Part shown: positions 2,430 through 12,909 of the stretch, in pieces | Layout of the letters: the number at the start of each line of letters is the position of its first letter | How positions within the stretch are numbered: position 1 is the stretch's first letter | Source: an uncultured Alphaproteobacteria bacterium | GTDB lineage: Bacteria > Pseudomonadota > Alphaproteobacteria > Rhodobacterales > Rhodobacteraceae | Direction: 5' to 3' | Length of the DNA stretch: 54,341 bases | NCBI GenBank assembly: GCA_902562285.1 | Contig: CACESU010000011.1 | Coordinates: 1-54,341, forward strand | Notes under the pieces: generated by a model | Database searches by the model: none | Seen by the model: the letters and a program-made list of their open reading frames with translations, nothing else | Told to the model about the DNA's origin: nothing | Made by a program: the position numbers and the translations under genes

Positions 2430-3116
2430 ATGACTTTTTACAGTCCGGAGTTTGATAGATATATACACGTAAATAGAAAAAATAAGATTCGTAGACTTTC
2501 TTTAAAGGTTTGTAGAGTTACTGGTAAAATTTCCATTAATGCATCATTGTATTTACCTAATTTAGATATTATTAATTTTTTTAATAAAAATCGTAGCTGG
2601 ATATCTAAGCAACTTAGTAAATGTGTAGTACCAAAAATTGTAGATAAAGGCTTAATGCTACCTGTTGAGGGAAATTGTTATGAGATAGTTTCAAATAAAA
2701 ATGTTTCAACAATAAGATTTCTTGAATCAAATAAAATTTGCTTGCCTAAAAATATTATAAATGTAGGCCATGCAGTACAAAAATTTCTTATTGAATATTG
2801 TCAGTCAATAATGACCCCATTTATTATTAAAAAATCGAATTTATTCAAAAAAAAAATTCAAAAAATAAGTTTTAAAGATACTAAATCGAGATGGGGGTCT
2901 TGTTCTTCTAAGGGATCAATAATGCTCAATTGGCGTCTTATAATGGCTCCTCCATCTGTTTATAAATATGTGATAATTCATGAATTGTCACATTTAGTCC
3001 ATATGAATCATGGATATCTTTTTTGGAAACTTGTAGGTGAATTACACCCTAGTTATATGAATGACAGAGAGTGGCTAAACAAAAATGGTCACGAAATCAG
3101 AAAATATGTATTCTAA
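2430..3116 (+). CDS. YgjP-type (DUF45 / M48-like) zinc metalloprotease
   Basis: A 228-residue protein with the full signature of the YgjP family. TKSRWGSCSS (151-160) precedes the zinc site HELSHLVHMNH (184-194), where H184, H188 and the later H194 would bind zinc and E185 would be catalytic. The segment after it (GYLFWKLV) matches the HxxxFW pattern of SprT/YgjP-like proteins. No signal peptide is visible, so it should be cytosolic. Family members are predicted peptidases with poorly known substrates. The N-terminal half (residues 1-110) is more divergent and lysine-rich. The gene lies 49 bp before the GntR gene on the same strand. Confidence 0.9.
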   Translation: MTFYSPEFDRYIHVNRKNKIRRLSLKVCRVTGKISINASLYLPNLDIINFFNKNRSWISKQLSKCVVPKIVDKGLMLPVEGNCYEIVSNKNVSTIRFLESNKICLPKNIINVGHAVQKFLIEYCQSIMTPFIIKKSNLFKKKIQKISFKDTKSRWGSCSSKGSIMLNWRLIMAPPSVYKYVIIHELSHLVHMNHGYLFWKLVGELHPSYMNDREWLNKNGHEIRKYVF

Positions 3117-3146
3117 AATAATATGTTCATTTGACATTTAAAAATT

Positions 3147-3160
3147 TTTGTGATCACAAA
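3147..3160. promoter_or_regulatory. Palindromic operator TTTGTGATCACAAA before the GntR gene
   Basis: A perfect 14-bp palindrome ends 5 bases before the ATG at 3166. A TTGACA at 3131-3136 could be the -35 of the same promoter. The core fits the FadR-subfamily GntR pattern (GT...AC with flanking T/A). The same core occurs twice upstream of sucC, so this is probably the autoregulatory site of the GntR protein. Confidence 0.7.
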
Positions 3161-3165
3161 GAGAT

Positions 3166-3819
3166 ATGAATAGAGAAATTAATACTAGGGATGTAATATT
3201 ACCTACGCATGAAGTAGTATACAGAAGTCTAAGATCAGAAATTCTTGGTGGTTGTTTAAATCCTGGACAAGTTTTAACTCTAAGATCTTTAGCTAAAAAA
3301 TTTAGGGTCTCGGTAATGCCTGTTCGCGAAGCAGTTAGAAGATTAGTAGCAGAAGGAGCGCTACAAATTTCTTCTTCAGGTCGAATTTCTACTCCCATTC
3401 TAACAAATGAAAGAATTGAAGAACTTGCCAGTTTGAGAGCAATTTTAGAACCTGAGTTAGCCTCAAAGTCGCTACCAAGGGTTCATGATGCTCTTATCGA
3501 TAGATTAGTTTTGATAAATGGTAAAATAGAGGAAATGATAGTTAAAAAAGACGCTGTTGGATATGTTAAAAGCAACCTCGAATTTCATCGTACATTATAT
3601 TTAAGAGCTCAAGCACCCAGCACTTTAGCATTAGTTGAAACAGTATGGTTACAATATATTCCAACTATGAGGGCACTTTATGATGATACATCTAAGAGTC
3701 AGGCACCTAATCATCACAGAAAAATATTATCAACACTTAGAGTAGGTGATGAACCAGGCTTAAAGCTAGCTGTGAGGGCCGATGTTACTAATGGTTTAAG
3801 AATGCTACTAGAGGTTTAA
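3166..3819 (+). CDS. GntR-family (FadR/FCD) transcriptional regulator
   Basis: A 217-residue regulator. A winged helix-turn-helix spans residues 12-78 (YRSLRSEILGGCLNPGQVL, then VMPVREAVRRLVAEGAL), followed by an all-helical FCD ligand-binding domain from about 85 to 210. H141 (NLEFHRTLY) and H184 (NHHRKIL) match two of the usual metal-binding histidines of FCD domains; where a third is common I see RADVTNG, so metal binding is doubtful. FCD regulators normally sense small carboxylic acids. The gene ends 6 bp from the end of lpd, and its apparent operator recurs before sucC, so I infer control of the neighbouring TCA genes by a TCA-related acid. The ligand is not known. Confidence 0.9.
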   Translation: MNREINTRDVILPTHEVVYRSLRSEILGGCLNPGQVLTLRSLAKKFRVSVMPVREAVRRLVAEGALQISSSGRISTPILTNERIEELASLRAILEPELASKSLPRVHDALIDRLVLINGKIEEMIVKKDAVGYVKSNLEFHRTLYLRAQAPSTLALVETVWLQYIPTMRALYDDTSKSQAPNHHRKILSTLRVGDEPGLKLAVRADVTNGLRMLLEV

Positions 3820-3825
3820 ATAAAC

Positions 3826-5214
3826 TTATGAATGTATAGCTCCGTCTCCACAAGCAAAAGCTGCTTCTCTTACTGCTTCTGAAAAAGTAGGATGTGCATG
3901 ACAAGTTCTAGCCAAGTCTTCAGCACTTGCCCCAAATTCCATTGCTACACAAATCTCATGTATTAAATCCCCAGCAGATGGACCTATTATATGACCTCCT
4001 AAAATTCTATCTGTAGTTTTGTCCGATAAAATTTTTGCATAACCGTCTGCTGAAAGACAAGCTTTTGCACGTCCATTTCCCATAAATGAAAATTTTCCAA
4101 CTTTATAACTCTTATTTTCTTTTTTTAGTTCTTCTTCTGTTTTACCTACACTTGCTACTTCTGGAGATGTATATATAACGGAAGGAATAATATCATAATT
4201 TACATGCCCCGATTGACCAGCAAGCATTTCTGCAAGCGCTATTCCTTCATCTTCTGCTTTATGAGCAAGCATTGGTCCACTTGTTACATCACCTATTGCG
4301 TATATTCCATCGATATTCGTTTTTAAATTTTCATCAGTTATAATTTGACCAAATTGATTTAATTCAATTCCTACTTTTTTAAGATTAAGTCCATCAGTAA
4401 AAGGTTTTCTTCCTGTTGCAACCAAAATGATATCAGTATCAAGTTCTTCTATTTTTTTACCATTTCTTAATGAATATTCGACAATGAGACGATCTCCTAA
4501 CTTTTTTGTAGCTTGAACACCTGCTCCTAAGATAAATTTTATTCCCTGCTTACTTAAAATTCTTCTAAACATTTTTGATGTTTCTTTATCGAGACCAGGG
4601 GTAATTTCTTCTAAGTACTCTAATACTGTCACATCTGTACCTAATCTTGAATATACTGAACCAAGTTCTAACCCTATAACCCCAGCTCCAACTATTATTA
4701 ATTTTTTTGGTATTTTTGTTAGAGACAAAGCTCCTGTTGAAGAGACGATAGTTTTCTCATCAACTTGTATTCCTTTTAATTGAGAGGGTTCTGATCCTGT
4801 TGCAATTATTATAGATTTAGATTTAAATTTTTGATTATTTACTATTAATAAACCAGGTTCTTTTATGGATGCCCATCCGTTGATTAAATCTATCTTATTT
4901 TTTTTAAAAAGAAACTCTATTCCTTTTGTATTCTGACTTACAATATCATTTTTGTATTCAAGCATTTTACCCCAGTTAACAGTCATTTTTCCTGTTTCTA
5001 TTCCAAGTTTGGAAAAGTTATGATTACTTTCTTCAAAAAGCTCTGAGGCATGTAATAATGCTTTAGATGGAATGCATCCTATGTTTAAACAGGTCCCACC
5101 CAGAGTATTTTTCCCCTCAATGCATGCTGTTTTTAAACCAAGTTGAGCACACCTAATAGCACATACATATCCGCCTGGGCCCGACCCGACAACTATAACA
5201 TCATAATCTGACAT
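3826..5214 (-). CDS. lpdA: Dihydrolipoyl dehydrogenase (E3)
   Basis: This 462-residue flavoprotein reoxidises dihydrolipoyl groups with NAD+ in 2-oxoacid dehydrogenase complexes. The FAD-binding GSGPGG is at 10-15, the redox disulfide C42/C47 is in [14 protein letters not shown], a second GxGxxG ([10 protein letters not shown]) binds NAD, and the C-terminal HAHPTFSE gives the His441-Glu446 pair. The length is normal. It is the last gene of the mdh-sucCDAB-lpd set, 14 bp after sucB, so it is presumably the E3 of the 2-oxoglutarate complex. It may also serve pyruvate dehydrogenase if no second copy exists elsewhere. Confidence 0.97.
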
Positions 5215-5228
5215 TTTCTTATCCTCTC

Positions 5229-6440
5229 CTAAACATCCATAAGTAAACGATGTGGGTCTTCGAGCATTTCTTTAACTCTTACTAAAAAAGTAACCGCTCC
5301 CTTCCCATCAACTATTCTATGATCATAACTAAGTGCTAAATACATCATGGGTTTAATAAAAATATTACCATCTATTGCAATTGGTCTTTCTTGAATTTTA
5401 TGCATGCCAAGAATTCCAGATTGTGGATAGTTTAAAATTGGTGAAGACATTAGGGATCCATAGACACCTCCATTAGATATAGTAAAAGTACCGCCTTTCA
5501 TATCATCCATTGAAAGTTTTCCATCTCTTGCTTTTTTTCCTAAATTACTAATTGATTTCTCTACCTCTGCAAAACTCATTTTATCAGCATTCTTTATAAC
5601 TGGGACTACTAGACCAGTAGGTGTTCCAACTGCAACGCCCATATTTACAAATTGATTAAAAACTAAGTGATCCTCATCTATTTGAGCGTTAACTTCTGGA
5701 ACTTCATTTAGTGCATGGCAACATGCTTTAACAAAGAAAGACATAAAACCTAACTTTACATTATGTTTTTTTTCAAAAACTTCTTTAAATTTACTTCTAA
5801 TTTTCATTACACTTGACATATCAACTTCATTATAGGTCGTTAGCATTGCGGCAGTATTTTGAGCTTCTTTCAAACGTTTAGCTATTGTCATACGTAATCT
5901 AGACATTTTAATTCGTTCTTGGTGCTTAGACGTATCAACCTCATTTTCTTGTATTTGATCATTTAATTGGTTTTCTGACCTATTTGTACTACTTTCAGAG
6001 TTTAAAACAGCTAGTACGTCTTCTTTCATAACTCTTCCATCTCTTCCTGTACCCACAACATTCTTCTCATTAATTTTATTTTCATTCATAAGTTTTTTTG
6101 CGGAAGGAGCATTCTCAAAATCCTTAGTATCATTACTTATTTGTATTTTGTCATTCGATATAGAAGATATTTTTTGACCATTATTATTTTCAGTTGGTTG
6201 AATTTCACCTTCCGAAATTATTCCTAGTATTGCATCAAGTCCAACAGTTTCACCTTCATGGGCAACTATTTCTGAAAGTATTCCCGAGACAGTTGAGGGT
6301 ACTTCAACTGTGACTTTATCAGTTTCTAATTCGCATAACATTTCATCGATAGCTACTGAATCACCAGGCTTTTTAAACCATGTTGCAACAGTTGCTTCAG
6401 TTACACTTTCTCCTAGGGTAGGTACACGTATTTCAGTCAT
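5229..6440 (-). CDS. sucB: 2-oxoglutarate dehydrogenase E2, dihydrolipoyl succinyltransferase
   Basis: 403 residues in the standard order. An N-terminal lipoyl domain carries the lipoylated lysine K42 in [11 protein letters not shown], followed by a linker rich in Asn/Ser/Gln. A peripheral-subunit-binding domain lies at about 112-148 ([12 protein letters not shown] ... [14 protein letters not shown]). The C-terminal catalytic domain has the active-site SYDHRIVDG with H374 and D378. It transfers succinyl from lipoamide to CoA and forms the core of the complex. A single lipoyl domain is usual for SucB. The gene is 8 bp downstream of sucA. Confidence 0.97.
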
Positions 6441-6448
6441 TTTTTACC

Positions 6449-9412
6449 TCAATCAATAGTAAGTGCTTCATTAATTATCATTTCTTGCTGTTTTTTATGC
6501 TGAGTAGCTAAACCAGTTGCAGGTGAAGCAGCTGCAGCTCTTCCAATATATCTCGCTCTTTTATATTTGGCCTTCACTCTATTTAAGGACCATTCCAAAT
6601 TAGGTTCAACAAATGACCAGCCCCCCTGATTTTTGGGTTCTTCTTGGCACCACACAAATTCTGCATCTTTAAATCTACTTAATTCTTTGATAAATGATAA
6701 TGCTGGGAACGGATAGAATTGTTCAAGTCTTAATAAGTATATATCAGAAATTTCCCTTTGTTCTCTTTCATTTAAGAGATCAAAATAGATTTTACCCGAG
6801 CAAATAATCACTCTTTTAATTTTTGAGTCTTTTTGTAACTTTGTTATTGAATTCCCTTTTTCAGCATCATCCCAAAGAACTCTATGAAAAGTAGAACCGT
6901 TTACAAAATCCACTTTACTAGAAACAGCACGTTTATTTCTAAGCAAAGATTTTGGACTCATTATAACTAAGGGCTTTCTAAAGCTCCTATACAGTTGCCT
7001 TCTTAAAATATGGAAATAATTTGATGGTGTTGTGCAATTAGCTATTATCCAGTTATCTTCAGCACATGCTTGTAAAAATCTTTCTAACCGTGCTGAAGAG
7101 TGTTCAGGACCCTGCCCCTCATAACCATGAGGGAGAAGCATTACCAATCCTGACATTCTCAACCATTTTTTTTCACCAGATGATATGAATTGATCAATCA
7201 TAATTTGTGCTCCATTGGAAAAATCACCAAATTGGGCTTCCCAAATTGTTAATGAATTTGGTTCTGCTAGGGAATAACCATACTCATAGCCTAAAACAGC
7301 ATATTCAGATAGCATAGAGTCTATAACTTCATAGTGTTTTTGATTTTTTGAGATGTTATTTAAAGGATAGTACCGCTCTTCTGTTAATTGATCAATAACA
7401 GCACTATGTCTATGGCTAAAAGTACCCCTTGTACAGTCTTGACCAGATAATCGAACAGGATAACCTTCCACTAATAGTGAACCGAAGGCAAGAGCTTCAG
7501 CTGTAGCCCAGTCAATATTTTTACCTGAGGTTAGTTGCTTTTGCTTATTATCAAGCATTCTTTTCACTGTTTTGTGAGCATTAATTTCATTTGGAATTTT
7601 AGTTAACGCTTTCCCAATTTCATTAAATTTTTGAATTGAAATAGAAGTTTTGCCCCTTTGATATTGGCCATCTTTTATTACAGCCTCTTTTGTATATTTT
7701 CCTAGCCCAGACCATTTACCATCTAACCAATCAGCTTTATTAGGTTTATAACTTTTTGAATTTTCAAATTCTTCAGAAAGAAATTTTTGAAAATTTATTT
7801 TTAAGTCTTCTATTTCACCTTCTGGTACTAAGCCTGCTATAATAAGTTTCTCTGAATACTGCTGTAAAGTAGTTTTATGCTTTTTTATTTTTGAATACAT
7901 CTTTGGTTGCGTGAACATCGGTTCATCACCTTCATTATGTCCAAATCTTCTGTAGCAAAATACGTCGATAACAACATCTTTATGAAACTTTTGTCGAAAT
8001 TCCGTCGCTACTTTTGCTGCATGAACTACAGCTTCTGGATCATCACCATTTACATGAAAAATTGGAGCCTCTACCATTAATGCTATGTCAGTTGGATATG
8101 GAGAAGATCTTGAATTATGTGGTGCTGTTGTAAACCCAATTTGATTATTAACAATTATGTGTATAGTGCCACCAGTTTTATGTCCTTTTAATCCTGATAG
8201 TCCAAAGCATTCTGAAATGATACCTTGTCCAGCAAATGCAGCATCACCATGCAGTAAAACAGGCAAAACTTGTACTCTATTGCTATCGTTAAGCTGATTT
8301 TGTTTTGCTCTTACTTTTCCTAAAACTACAGGGTTTACAGCCTCTAAGTGACTAGGATTAGCTGTTAAAGACAAGTGAATTTTGTTTCCATCAAATTCTC
8401 TGTCAGATGATGCTCCAAGGTGATATTTTACATCACCAGATCCTTCAACTTCCTCTGGTTTGTAACTACCACCTTGAAATTCATTAAAAATTGCTCTGTA
8501 TGGTTTCCCCATTACATTTGCTAAAATTGATAAACGTCCTCTGTGAGGCATGCCAATAATTATTTCTTTTACGCCAAGATTACCGCCTCTTTTAATGATT
8601 TGCTCCATTGCCGGTATTACTGCTTCGCCACCGTCTAATCCAAATCTTTTGGTTCCCATATATTTTATATGCAAAAACTTTTCAAATCCTTCTGCTTCTA
8701 TAAGCTTATTAAGAATTGCTTTTCTACCTTTTTGAGTAAATTCTATTTCTTTACCCAATCCTTCAATTCTTTCCTTTAACCAAGCAGATTCTTCAGCATT
8801 AGAAATATGCATATATTGAAGTGCAAAAGTACCGCAGTAAGTTTTCTTTACAATTTGTGATATTTGATTCATCGATGCTTCTTCAAGACCTAAAACTTTA
8901 TCTAAGTAAATCTGTCTATTCATATCTTCTGAATTAAATCCATATGTTTTAGGATCTAATGCTGGGTCTAAGGTTTTTGTTTCAGTTGAATTAAGTGGGT
9001 CTAGATTTGCAGCCAAATGTCCTCTGACCCTGTAAGCACGAATAAACATTAATGCCCTTATACTATCAAGTACTGACGTTTTGATATCAAATTTTTGTGA
9101 CTTAATAACTTTATTATTAATTTTTTTATTCTCATCAAGATTACTGCACTCGCCCCACTGTCCATCAAATGCTGCTATTTCTTCAGTAACATTAGTTGGA
9201 GGCCAATCTCGTCTAAACCATGAAGGTTTTATTTTTATTTCATCTTTAGAACTTGGAATTTCGTGAGAAAGGTTTTTGAAAATGGTAATCCATTTTTCAT
9301 TTAATATTTGGGGGTTAGATATATATGTATCATACATCTGTTCTAAATTTTGTAGACTATTTATATCTAAGCTATTTACTATTTCTGTCAAATTGTCGGT
9401 AGCTTTACTCAT
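6449..9412 (-). CDS. sucA: 2-oxoglutarate dehydrogenase E1 component
   Basis: A 987-residue thiamine-diphosphate enzyme that decarboxylates 2-oxoglutarate. The N-terminal segment (about 1-40, with LEQMYDTYISNP) is the E2-binding region. The catalytic part shows GMPHRGRLS, the ThDP-binding stretch from HGDAAFAGQG to NNQIGFTT, and RRFGHNEGDEPMFTQP. The transketolase-like pyrimidine domain holds GTFSHRHSAV, and the C-terminal part ends in the AAAASPATGLATQH motif that is conserved in SucA. The length is normal. It lies between sucD and sucB with short gaps (25 and 8 bp). Confidence 0.97.
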   Translation of the reverse strand: MSKATDNLTEIVNSLDINSLQNLEQMYDTYISNPQILNEKWITIFKNLSHEIPSSKDEIKIKPSWFRRDWPPTNVTEEIAAFDGQWGECSNLDENKKINNKVIKSQKFDIKTSVLDSIRALMFIRAYRVRGHLAANLDPLNSTETKTLDPALDPKTYGFNSEDMNRQIYLDKVLGLEEASMNQISQIVKKTYCGTFALQYMHISNAEESAWLKERIEGLGKEIEFTQKGRKAILNKLIEAEGFEKFLHIKYMGTKRFGLDGGEAVIPAMEQIIKRGGNLGVKEIIIGMPHRGRLSILANVMGKPYRAIFNEFQGGSYKPEEVEGSGDVKYHLGASSDREFDGNKIHLSLTANPSHLEAVNPVVLGKVRAKQNQLNDSNRVQVLPVLLHGDAAFAGQGIISECFGLSGLKGHKTGGTIHIIVNNQIGFTTAPHNSRSSPYPTDIALMVEAPIFHVNGDDPEAVVHAAKVATEFRQKFHKDVVIDVFCYRRFGHNEGDEPMFTQPKMYSKIKKHKTTLQQYSEKLIIAGLVPEGEIEDLKINFQKFLSEEFENSKSYKPNKADWLDGKWSGLGKYTKEAVIKDGQYQRGKTSISIQKFNEIGKALTKIPNEINAHKTVKRMLDNKQKQLTSGKNIDWATAEALAFGSLLVEGYPVRLSGQDCTRGTFSHRHSAVIDQLTEERYYPLNNISKNQKHYEVIDSMLSEYAVLGYEYGYSLAEPNSLTIWEAQFGDFSNGAQIMIDQFISSGEKKWLRMSGLVMLLPHGYEGQGPEHSSARLERFLQACAEDNWIIANCTTPSNYFHILRRQLYRSFRKPLVIMSPKSLLRNKRAVSSKVDFVNGSTFHRVLWDDAEKGNSITKLQKDSKIKRVIICSGKIYFDLLNEREQREISDIYLLRLEQFYPFPALSFIKELSRFKDAEFVWCQEEPKNQGGWSFVEPNLEWSLNRVKAKYKRARYIGRAAAASPATGLATQHKKQQEMIINEALTID

Positions 9413-9437
9413 CTTTTACCTATTTTTATCGTCTCGA

Positions 9438-10328
9438 TTATTTAAAATTTTTAATTGCAGTACTTACTGCTGTTCCAAGTTCTCCAGGACTTTCTGTAAC
9501 AATAATTCCAGCAGATCGCATAGCTTCAATTTTATCTGAAGCTCCGCCCTTACCACCAGCAACTATTGCACCCGCATGACCCATTCTTCTGCCAGGGGGG
9601 GCAGTAATTCCTGCAATAAATCCTGCGATAGGTTTTGATCTACCTTTTTTTCTTTCATCTTTAATAAATTGAGCTGCTTCCTCTTCTGCAGTTCCTCCAA
9701 TTTCTCCAATTAATACAATGCTTTTAGTTTCATTATCAGATAAAAATAATTCAAGAACATCAATATGCTCTGTTCCTTTAACAGGATCTCCTCCTATTCC
9801 AACGCATGTTGATTGACCCAATCCTATTTCTGTAGTTTGAGCAACTGCTTCATAAGTAAGTGTTCCAGATCTTGAAACTACCCCTACACTTCCTTTTTTG
9901 TGAATGTGTCCTGGCATAATCCCTATTTTGCACTCTTCAGGAGTAATTACACCTGGACAGTTTGGCCCTATTAAACGTGATTTTGAACCATGTAAAGCTC
10001 TCTTTACTCTTACCATATCTATAACTGGTATACCTTCAGTAATACACACAATTGTTTCTATTTCAGAGTCTATAGCTTCAAGTATTGCATCTGCGGCAAA
10101 TGGTGGAGGTACATAAATCACTGTGGCATTGGCTTTGGTTTTTAATTTTGCATCATAAACTGTATCAAAAACAGGTAATCCTAAATGTTTTTCTCCACCT
10201 TTACCAGGTGTAACTCCCCCCACCATATTAGTACCATAGTCAATAGCTTGCTGAGAGTGAAAAGTTCCCTGTGAACCTGTGAAACCTTGGCAAATTACTT
10301 TTGTATTTTTATTTATAAATATTGACAT
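9438..10328 (-). CDS. sucD: Succinyl-CoA synthetase alpha subunit (ADP/GDP-forming)
   Basis: A 296-residue subunit that carries the phospho-histidine of succinyl-CoA synthetase. [11 protein letters not shown] (15-25) is the CoA-binding Rossmann motif, and H251 in [14 protein letters not shown] is the phosphorylated histidine. The enzyme makes ATP or GTP while converting succinyl-CoA to succinate. It starts one base after the sucC stop, so the two subunits are probably translationally coupled. The length is as expected. Confidence 0.98.
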
Positions 10329-10329
10329 T

Positions 10330-11526
10330 TTAATTACCTTTCACTGCTGAAACAATTTTCTTTGCAGCATCAGAAAGATTATCTGCAGCAATTACATTTA
10401 ATCCACTTTTATTTATTATATCTTTACCTTTTTCTACATTTGTACCTTCGAGTCTGACGACTAAAGGAACTGAAAGACCAACATTTTTGACAGCCTCAAC
10501 TACCCCTTCTGCAATAACATCGCATCTCATTATTCCTCCAAAAATATTTACTAAAATTCCTTTAACATTTTTATCTGAGGTTATAATTTTAAAAGCTTCA
10601 GTTACTTTCTCTTTAGTAGCACCTCCGCCTACATCCAAAAAATTTGCTGGTTCAGAACCGAATAATTTAATTATATCCATTGTGGCCATTGCTAGTCCTG
10701 CTCCATTAACCATACAGCCAATTTCACCGTCTAGGGCAATATAATTTAGGTCAAATTTAGAAGCAGCCAGTTCTTTTGGATCTTCTTCAGTTTCATCATG
10801 AAATGCAAGTACAGAAGGTTGTCGATACATTGCATTACTATCAAAACCCATTTTGCAATCTAAACAGAGTAATTTTTCGTCTTGAGTGAGAATTAGTGGA
10901 TTTATTTCTAACATCTCACAATCTTTTTCATTAAATAATTTGAATAAAGTTTGAACTAAATGTACACATTGCTTAATTTGTTTTCCCTTTAAACCTAGTG
11001 CAAATGCAACTCTTCTACCATGAAAACTAGATAGTCCTGAAGCTGGATCAACCGTAAATTTGATTATTCTTTCTGGAGTTTTGTCGGCAACTTCCTCAAT
11101 ATCCATCCCACCTTCTTTAGAAGCTACAAAAGCTATTCTAGAAGTTGTCCTATCGATCAATACAGCTAAATAAAACTCTTTAGCTATTTGGCAACCATCT
11201 TCAATATATATTCTTCTGACTTCTTTCCCAGATCGCCCAGTTTGTTTGGTTACTAAAGTTCTACCAAGCATTTTTTGTGCTTGTTCTGCAGCTTCTGATG
11301 CTGATTTTGCAAGTCTAACTCCACCTTCAACTCCAGCACTTTCTTCAATAAACTTACCTTTTCCTCTTCCGCCTGCATGTATTTGAGCCTTAATAACCCA
11401 TAATGGTCCATCCAATTCTCCCGCTGCCGTCTTGGCCTCTTCTGCCTTATAAATAATTCTTCCATCTAAAACTGGAATTCCATATTCTCTCAAAAATTGT
11501 TTTGCTTGATATTCATGGATATTCAT
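10330..11526 (-). CDS. sucC: Succinyl-CoA synthetase beta subunit
   Basis: A 398-residue ATP-grasp subunit that binds nucleotide and succinate. The N-terminus [19 protein letters not shown] is diagnostic, the ATP-grasp part contains [12 protein letters not shown], and the C-terminal ligase domain holds GGGATKEKV and [10 protein letters not shown]. It is the first gene after a 173-bp spacer that contains a double palindromic operator 123-153 bp upstream, so a regulated promoter probably lies in that spacer even though mdh is upstream on the same strand. Confidence 0.98.
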
Positions 11527-11581
11527 TTTCTCACCTAAAGATTAGTAAATTTATTGGTACATCTAAATAACCCAATATTTG

Positions 11582-11594
11582 CAGTCATTGACTG
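11582..11594. repeat. 13-bp inverted repeat in the sucC leader
   Basis: CAGTCATTGACTG: 6-bp arms around one base, 56 bp before the sucC start. It could be a minor operator or chance; no match to the GntR site. Confidence 0.3.
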
Positions 11595-11640
11595 TATTTT
11601 GAAGTAGTTTTTTTAAAAAAAGAGATAAAAGCATAAAAAG

Positions 11641-11688
11641 TTTTAATTTTGTGATCACAATAAATTAAACGTGATCACAAAATTAAAA
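11641..11688. promoter_or_regulatory. Double GTGATCAC operator in an 18-bp inverted repeat upstream of sucC
   Basis: TTTTAATTTTGTGATCAC (11641-11658) is repeated as a perfect reverse complement at 11671-11688, separated by 12 bases. Each arm contains the palindrome GTGATCAC, with centres exactly 20 bp apart, close to two helical turns. The core equals the palindrome in front of the GntR gene. As RNA the element could also fold into an 18-bp hairpin followed by U-rich sequence downstream of mdh, so it may be operator, terminator or both. Confidence 0.7.
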
Positions 11689-12680: not shown

Positions 12681-12880
12681 TTAAATTAAAATTATTTAAG
12701 TAGAGCCCAATCAATATGAATTAATGAATTTTGGTATAGAATCAAAAAGCTAACTAGTTTTAGTTATACTAATAAACAAGAGATGATTGTAGTAAAGATA
12801 AAAAAATTTTGATCTAAAAATAATAATTTAATTGTAATATTATTTAAAAAATTAGTCTTCAAGATTTTTAAAGTTCTTTG

Positions 12881-12909
12881 GTGACAATTAATCACATTGC
12901 ATTTATTCT
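12881..12909 (+). promoter_or_regulatory. Candidate sdh promoter
   Basis: GTGACA (12881-12886), a 17-bp spacer and TATTCT (12904-12909) lie 34 bp before the sdhC start. They are in the 283-bp gap shared with mdh, where I see nothing else clear. Confidence 0.45.

Follow-up and report, generated by a model that had tools for sequence, protein, structure and literature searches.

The window, the whole stretch of 54,341 nucleotides that was analysed, carries a set of TCA-cycle genes from a member of the Rhodobacteraceae. The genes sucC, sucD, sucA, sucB, and lpd form a proposed operon, and a gene for a regulator with a winged-helix GntR domain and an FCD domain, called akgR here, lies next to it (Table 1). 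The mdh gene has the minus-strand orientation too; beyond it come the sdh genes, on the plus strand. The names sucC, sucD, sucA, sucB, lpd, and mdh are a reading of Pfam domain content. The regulator gene runs toward lpd from the opposite strand and is preceded by an upstream region of its own, which places it beside the operon and outside it. The earlier sequence-only reading of this stretch had put the regulator at the far end of the sucCDAB-lpd set. The adjacency stands, and the regulator is more exactly a convergent neighbor than a member of the operon. Directly 5′ of akgR there is a gene for a YgjP-like metallopeptidase (window 2430-3116), which is found near akgR in most named loci of the family even though the identity is low, at about 28-34% beyond the genus.

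Table 1. Genes, operators, and promoter elements of the locus, in window coordinates
Feature	Position	Strand	Evidence or remark
Putative -35 of akgR (TTGACA)	3131..3136	+	13 bp 5′ of the GTGATCAC core
Single operator TTGTGATCACAA before akgR, at the place of a -10 element	3148..3159		Exact match; GTGATCAC there in 11/11 genus loci and 56/80 named loci
akgR-like regulator, 217 aa, GntR (winged helix) + FCD	3166..3819	+	Pfam GntR 9.7e-16, FCD 2.7e-15
Proposed target operon sucC, sucD, sucA, sucB, lpd	3826..11526	-	ORFs and Pfam
sucC core promoter, tentative	11577..11606	-	By-eye alignment with genus relatives L071, L095, L096; weak
Operator TTGTGATCACAA, nearer sucC	11649..11660		Exact match; kept as pair member in 11/11 genus loci
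Second operator, with core GTGATCAC; 20 bp centre to centre from the other	11669..11680		Pair in 132/149 family genomes
TTTTGATCTAAA, possible degenerate sdhC operator relic	12807..12818		3 mismatches; 13/100 mononucleotide shuffles equal; not significant
sdhC core promoter remnant (GTGACA, 16 bp, TTATTC), no upstream operator pair	12881..12908	+	Family layout; by eye

The core GTGATCAC occurs three times in the window (3150-3157, 11651-11658, and 11671-11678), once at the GntR-type gene and twice in the gap between mdh and sucC, exactly where the sequence-only reading had placed these cores. The 12-mer TTGTGATCACAA is exact at the first two positions, and the third copy matches it with two mismatches. 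On the sucC side the centres of the two cores are 20 bp apart, and the pair lies 123-154 bp 5′ of the sucC start (11526, minus strand). On the akgR side, the lone site ends 6 bp 5′ of the regulator's ATG (3166, plus strand).

In the genome of the window (1,734,997 bases in an assembly 67.79% complete), the exact 12-mer is present at two places only, before akgR and before sucC. The shorter core occurs 12 times, three in the window and nine elsewhere. Among these nine, seven are within ORFs of 318-546 amino acids, one is within an ORF of 97 amino acids, and the ninth lies outside every ORF of at least 70 amino acids. There are ten 12-mers with one mismatch, nine of them within ORFs and one (G000:C2:24736) about 20 bp 5′ of an ORF read as a short-chain dehydrogenase. 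The GTGATCAC core outside the ORFs (L005 1501-1508; G000:C7:34229-34236) overlaps the start region of a gene read as rpmI, which is followed by a putative rplT. The core at the putative rpmI start and the one-mismatch site before the putative short-chain dehydrogenase are the nearest off-target candidates; the labels rpmI, rplT, and short-chain dehydrogenase are a reading of the letters alone. A regulator with many targets is rejected for the available part of the genome, as the full site is absent at unrelated genes.

Both the regulator and its sites are conserved among relatives. The akgR gene is present in 11 of the 12 genomes of the genus, its own included, the exception (G008) being 67% complete. 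In all 11 genus loci (the window and the region from the other 10 genomes), GTGATCAC precedes akgR and the pair precedes sucC (TTGTGATCACAA with at most 2 mismatches), with a spacing of 20 bp in seven loci and 21 bp in four. In a survey of 149 genomes of the family, taking as a pair two cores with a gap of 11-13 and as akgR a match with E of 1e-50 or better, the pair is found in 132 genomes and akgR in 133. Both are present in 129 genomes, akgR alone in four (G435, G455, G514, and G539), the pair alone in three (G414, G488, and G506), and neither in 13 (Fisher p = 7e-13, the 149 genomes being treated as independent and shared ancestry left uncorrected). G455, one of the genomes with akgR and no standard pair, has two pairs at other gaps. 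The gap is 11-13 in 241 of the 268 family core pairs with gaps of 0-30, and a reversed-pattern control gives 0 in each family genome row. A draw across the class has the pair in all five genomes of the family and in 2 of 380 other alphaproteobacterial genomes, and the reversed control in 1 of 385 (G085). One of the two pairs outside the family (L251, in G214) is in a locus with no match to any of the twelve query proteins. The other (L250 992-1020; G158:C189) is the only one with a plausible setting, before an FCD gene 27% identical, and is a hint that related FCD proteins keep the recognition core. The best 80 named relatives of the regulator, from a longer list, belong mostly to Rhodobacteraceae, Paracoccaceae, or genera of that group. 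They include Cereibacter ovatus, of the same genus as Rhodobacter sphaeroides, and a 96% identical copy titled Flavobacteriales (L139), which we take as a mislabel. The phased spacing noticed in the sequence-only reading is thus a conserved feature of the relatives. The tie it had proposed between the regulator and sucCDAB-lpd is supported by the co-occurrence in the family, by the conserved sites, and by the outcome of the genome-wide search it had suggested, with the exact 12-mer at two places only.

In a 2015 mBio paper, Imam, Noguera, and Donohue reportedly described AkgR of Rhodobacter (Cereibacter) sphaeroides as a direct activator of several TCA-cycle genes that belongs to the GntR family. 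Its locus tag is RSP_0981. The regulator of the window is 64% identical to the copy in a genome of the genus Cereibacter (G446 in the family draw, with the same coordinates as G554 in the draw of that genus). An akgR ortholog is found in five of five Cereibacter genomes, with E of 4e-82 or better, and three of these have one weaker match each. In the locus of G446 (L132), a stretch of 17 kb holds akgR together with sucC, mdh, and sdhCDAB; one pair precedes sucC and another sdhC, and Cereibacter ovatus (L249) has pairs at both genes too. The traits of the regulon present in the window are the GntR and FCD domains, above the Pfam cut-offs, and a GTGATCAC pair before the TCA-cycle gene sucC. No NCBIfam model scored against the regulator fits AkgR, all scores being far under the cut-offs. 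The regulator of the window is likely an AkgR ortholog. The sequence-only reading had taken the circuit for an unknown one, which is not supported: GTGATCAC is the motif reported for AkgR, the GntR-type activator of R. sphaeroides, in the accessible part of a paper (PMC6365646) that cites Imam 2015 (mBio 6:e02461-14).

One may ask if the sites are chance palindromes, as the core has just 8 bp and recurs nine times elsewhere in the genome. Yet shuffled windows have on average 0.16 cores, none of 100 reaches three, and none contains a core pair with a gap of 8-16, which the window has once. The sites are also kept in position across the genus and the family. Chance has therefore a negligible probability, and shuffles and conservation together rule it out. 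It is also very improbable, if slightly less so, that the sites are bound by an FCD regulator other than the neighbor. Such a protein is conceivable, as the core is shared by the G158 protein, with a pair before its own gene, and by a Pseudomonas FCD regulator, which also uses GTGATCAC according to the accessible part of PMC6365646; hence the motif alone cannot name the regulator. However, the neighbor is the sole match at E 1e-5 in the genome of the window (68% complete), and the family-wide co-occurrence of akgR with the pair also speaks for it.

In the loci viewed, almost all pairs lie before two genes. Among 30 of the 241 family pair places, viewed as loci, 16 are before sucC (the window included), 13 before sdhC, and one before a gene called fumC here, whose score against the class II fumarase model exceeds the cut-off. 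This last case is a third operator pair with the same spacing (L099 1794-1822; G437:C16:228293-228321), and it implies that AkgR may reach one further step of the TCA cycle in some genomes. In a wider locus set, which includes loci fetched for known pairs and counts spacings of 10-32 bp, 58 of 61 pair instances are before sucC or sdhC, and deduplication leaves 50 (35 at sucC and 15 at sdhC). The other three are the fumarase pair, counted twice, and one pair with a spacing of 31 bp. In this last pair the cores are some three helical turns apart, between amidase and TauE-like genes (L137 1843-1881; G528:C8:47342-47380). A further 17 loci (L231-L240 and L242-L248) have pairs at sucC or sdhC. In ten named genomes, 11 of the 21 pair places were viewed. 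Paracoccus yeei has two AkgR-type pairs, one of them before sdhC. The target count leaves aside one pair in G527 and, in Leisingera (G543), a third pair. In a larger member of the genus, a TGTGATCACA site lies between M24 peptidase and TIM-barrel epimerase-like genes (L128 2909-2916; G003:C8), about 2.6 kb from the gene of a second FCD regulator.

The position of the pairs relative to the promoters was analyzed by a search for two-block motifs in 15 sdhC and 28 sucC promoters, leaving out the near-duplicate sucC promoters of the genus (L089, L090, L092, L093, L094, L098, and L139). The sdhC motif has 13.1 bits per sequence, versus 8.4-9.6 in shuffled sequences, and its GTGAC block, read as a -35 element, starts 56-58 bp past the pair in 11 of the 15 family promoters. 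The sucC motif is weaker (10.2 bits versus 8.2-8.5), with a block 42-46 bp past the pair in 12 of the 28 promoters. With either block position, the dimers would lie upstream of RNA polymerase, which fits activation. At sucC the core promoter is poorly defined: the motif search put the window's own block at 9 bp, counter to the by-eye reading, and a scan for the sigma-70 consensus upstream of sucC in the window found nothing. Hence, the upstream placement is less sure at sucC than at sdhC.

A second pair, before sdhC, is a trait of most family genomes with two pairs and is not found in the window. It is a family layout seen in this survey, not known as part of the published definition of AkgR. 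The mdh-sdhC gap can be read in 10 of the 11 genus loci, the window included (L093 ends too early), and none of the 10 contains an upstream sdhC pair with fewer than 4 mismatches in 16 positions. The GGTGACA core promoter at sdhC is seen by eye in all 10 upstream regions, and in the window TTTTGATCTAAA, a poor and non-significant match, stands near the expected place of the sdhC operator. Two genus loci (L092 and L094) have a near-match pair, with 4/16 mismatches, inside the sdhC core promoter, and none of 100 mononucleotide shuffles equals it. At the same spot the window has 6/16 mismatches, which 26 of 100 shuffles equal. Given the near-matches in these two loci, weak or altered control of sdhC may persist, which counts against a clean loss. 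Since 25 of the 132 pair-bearing family genomes have a single pair, that state is not peculiar to this genus. The second target, sdhC, has apparently been lost here.

The site before akgR has a different setting. The exact site is found at most 250 bp before akgR in 56 of the 80 named loci and is absent in 24. Of these 56 loci, 48 have a TTGA[CT]n hexamer at a distance of 12 or 13 bp 5′ of the core, a match seen at 65 of 16000 random positions, and 52 have their first in-frame start codon 7-12 bp past the core. In the window the ATG is 8 bp after the core, and a sigma-70 scan at akgR gives one weak minus-strand site only. The akgR message may be leaderless, and this, with an operator at the -10 position, makes repression the natural reading of the site. 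Upstream of akgR in C. ovatus (L162) and in L132, TTGACC and the nearby start codon are retained and GTGATCAC is missing, so autoregulation may be absent in Cereibacter.

FCD proteins with a metal in the effector pocket hold it by one Asp and three His. Among 23 aligned sequences, two histidines of the FCD domain, H141 and H184, never vary, and position 206 is always Asp. Both His align with His of 3fms, in an alignment that stops before the last ligand. These residues are compatible with an acid- or metal-binding pocket and do not name the ligand.

The sequences show where the sites lie, how they are phased, which target genes they precede, that they are conserved, and that they occur together with akgR. 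The model that we favor, with a probability of about 0.85, is that of an AkgR regulon, for which we infer binding, cooperativity, activation of sucC, repression of akgR, and an effector. AkgR would recognize the palindrome TTGTGATCACAA, presumably in dimeric form. Activation of sucCDAB-lpd would come from two such dimers that occupy the same helix face at a distance of 20 bp, upstream of the sucC core promoter. A single dimer covering the -10 region of akgR would repress this gene and so cap the level of the regulator. The activity of AkgR would depend on an effector held by the FCD domain, perhaps an acid of the TCA cycle. Weighing against the model are the three family genomes with the pair alone and the four with akgR alone, the 24 named loci with no exact site before akgR, and the ill-defined core promoter of sucC. 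The same sites could also serve a repressor at sucC that leaves when an effector binds. Many FCD proteins repress until their effector releases them, and the akgR site is itself in a repressor-like position. Against this, most sdhC pairs keep a set distance upstream of the core promoter (56-58 bp in 11 of 15), and AkgR is termed an activator in the accessible part of PMC6365646. Repression of sucC is therefore unlikely, although clearly less so than the alternatives weighed above, and activation from the pair is preferred.

A more specific form of the activation model stands, in our view, at even odds. It combines an upstream activation module of two dimers, whose phasing is fixed at 20-21 bp in most of the family, with autorepression of akgR through a -10 operator on a leaderless or nearly leaderless message in many members, and with an sdh arm shed in this genus. 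If it is true, 2-oxoglutarate dehydrogenase and succinyl-CoA synthetase would be controlled apart from succinate dehydrogenase in this genus, which makes it a natural case of seemingly uncoupled suc and sdh arms. A literature search that did not cover the AkgR paper of 2015 itself found no tandem-site geometry and no earlier description of the family-wide spacing rule, the akgR -10 operator, or the missing sdhC pair; searching with the motif strings gave nothing recognized as relevant among the results listed. The conserved geometry leads to precise predictions on binding, start sites, and the sign of regulation. According to the accessible part of PMC11323563, the CceR regulon of R. sphaeroides includes succinate dehydrogenase, 2-oxoglutarate dehydrogenase, and fumarase; that of Paracoccus denitrificans does not, and other mechanisms must act there. 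The AkgR-type pairs of P. yeei make AkgR a candidate to fill this gap.

Several known systems resemble the one proposed here. AkgR of R. sphaeroides, in the study of Imam 2015, is said to control TCA-cycle genes, as we propose for the window. Like the regulator of the window, it is a GntR-family protein with the GTGATCAC core, according to the accessible part of PMC6365646. The same part of that source describes PS417_07240 of Pseudomonas simiae, from a deoxyribonate cluster, which is also gntR-like and has a conserved GTGATCAC before its own gene, but belongs to a different pathway and has a stated identity of 32% to AkgR. An identity with PdhR is rejected, as the protein of the window scores 26.8 bits, versus a cut-off of 330 for the NCBIfam PdhR equivalog model. 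PdhR is likewise a GntR-family protein. In Shewanellaceae its regulon includes TCA-cycle genes such as sdhCDAB, as in the proposed system, but it responds to pyruvate, unlike the system of the window as described here (PMC5343134, accessible part). In Cereibacter, the orthologous gene is present in all five genomes of the genus and lies beside mdh, sdh, and suc in L132. The window differs in that no sdhC pair is found there and that akgR lies beside lpd with its own operator, which is absent in L132 and L162. In conclusion, the locus most probably extends the AkgR regulon to another genus of Rhodobacteraceae, and the kind of link between regulator and TCA cycle is one already described.
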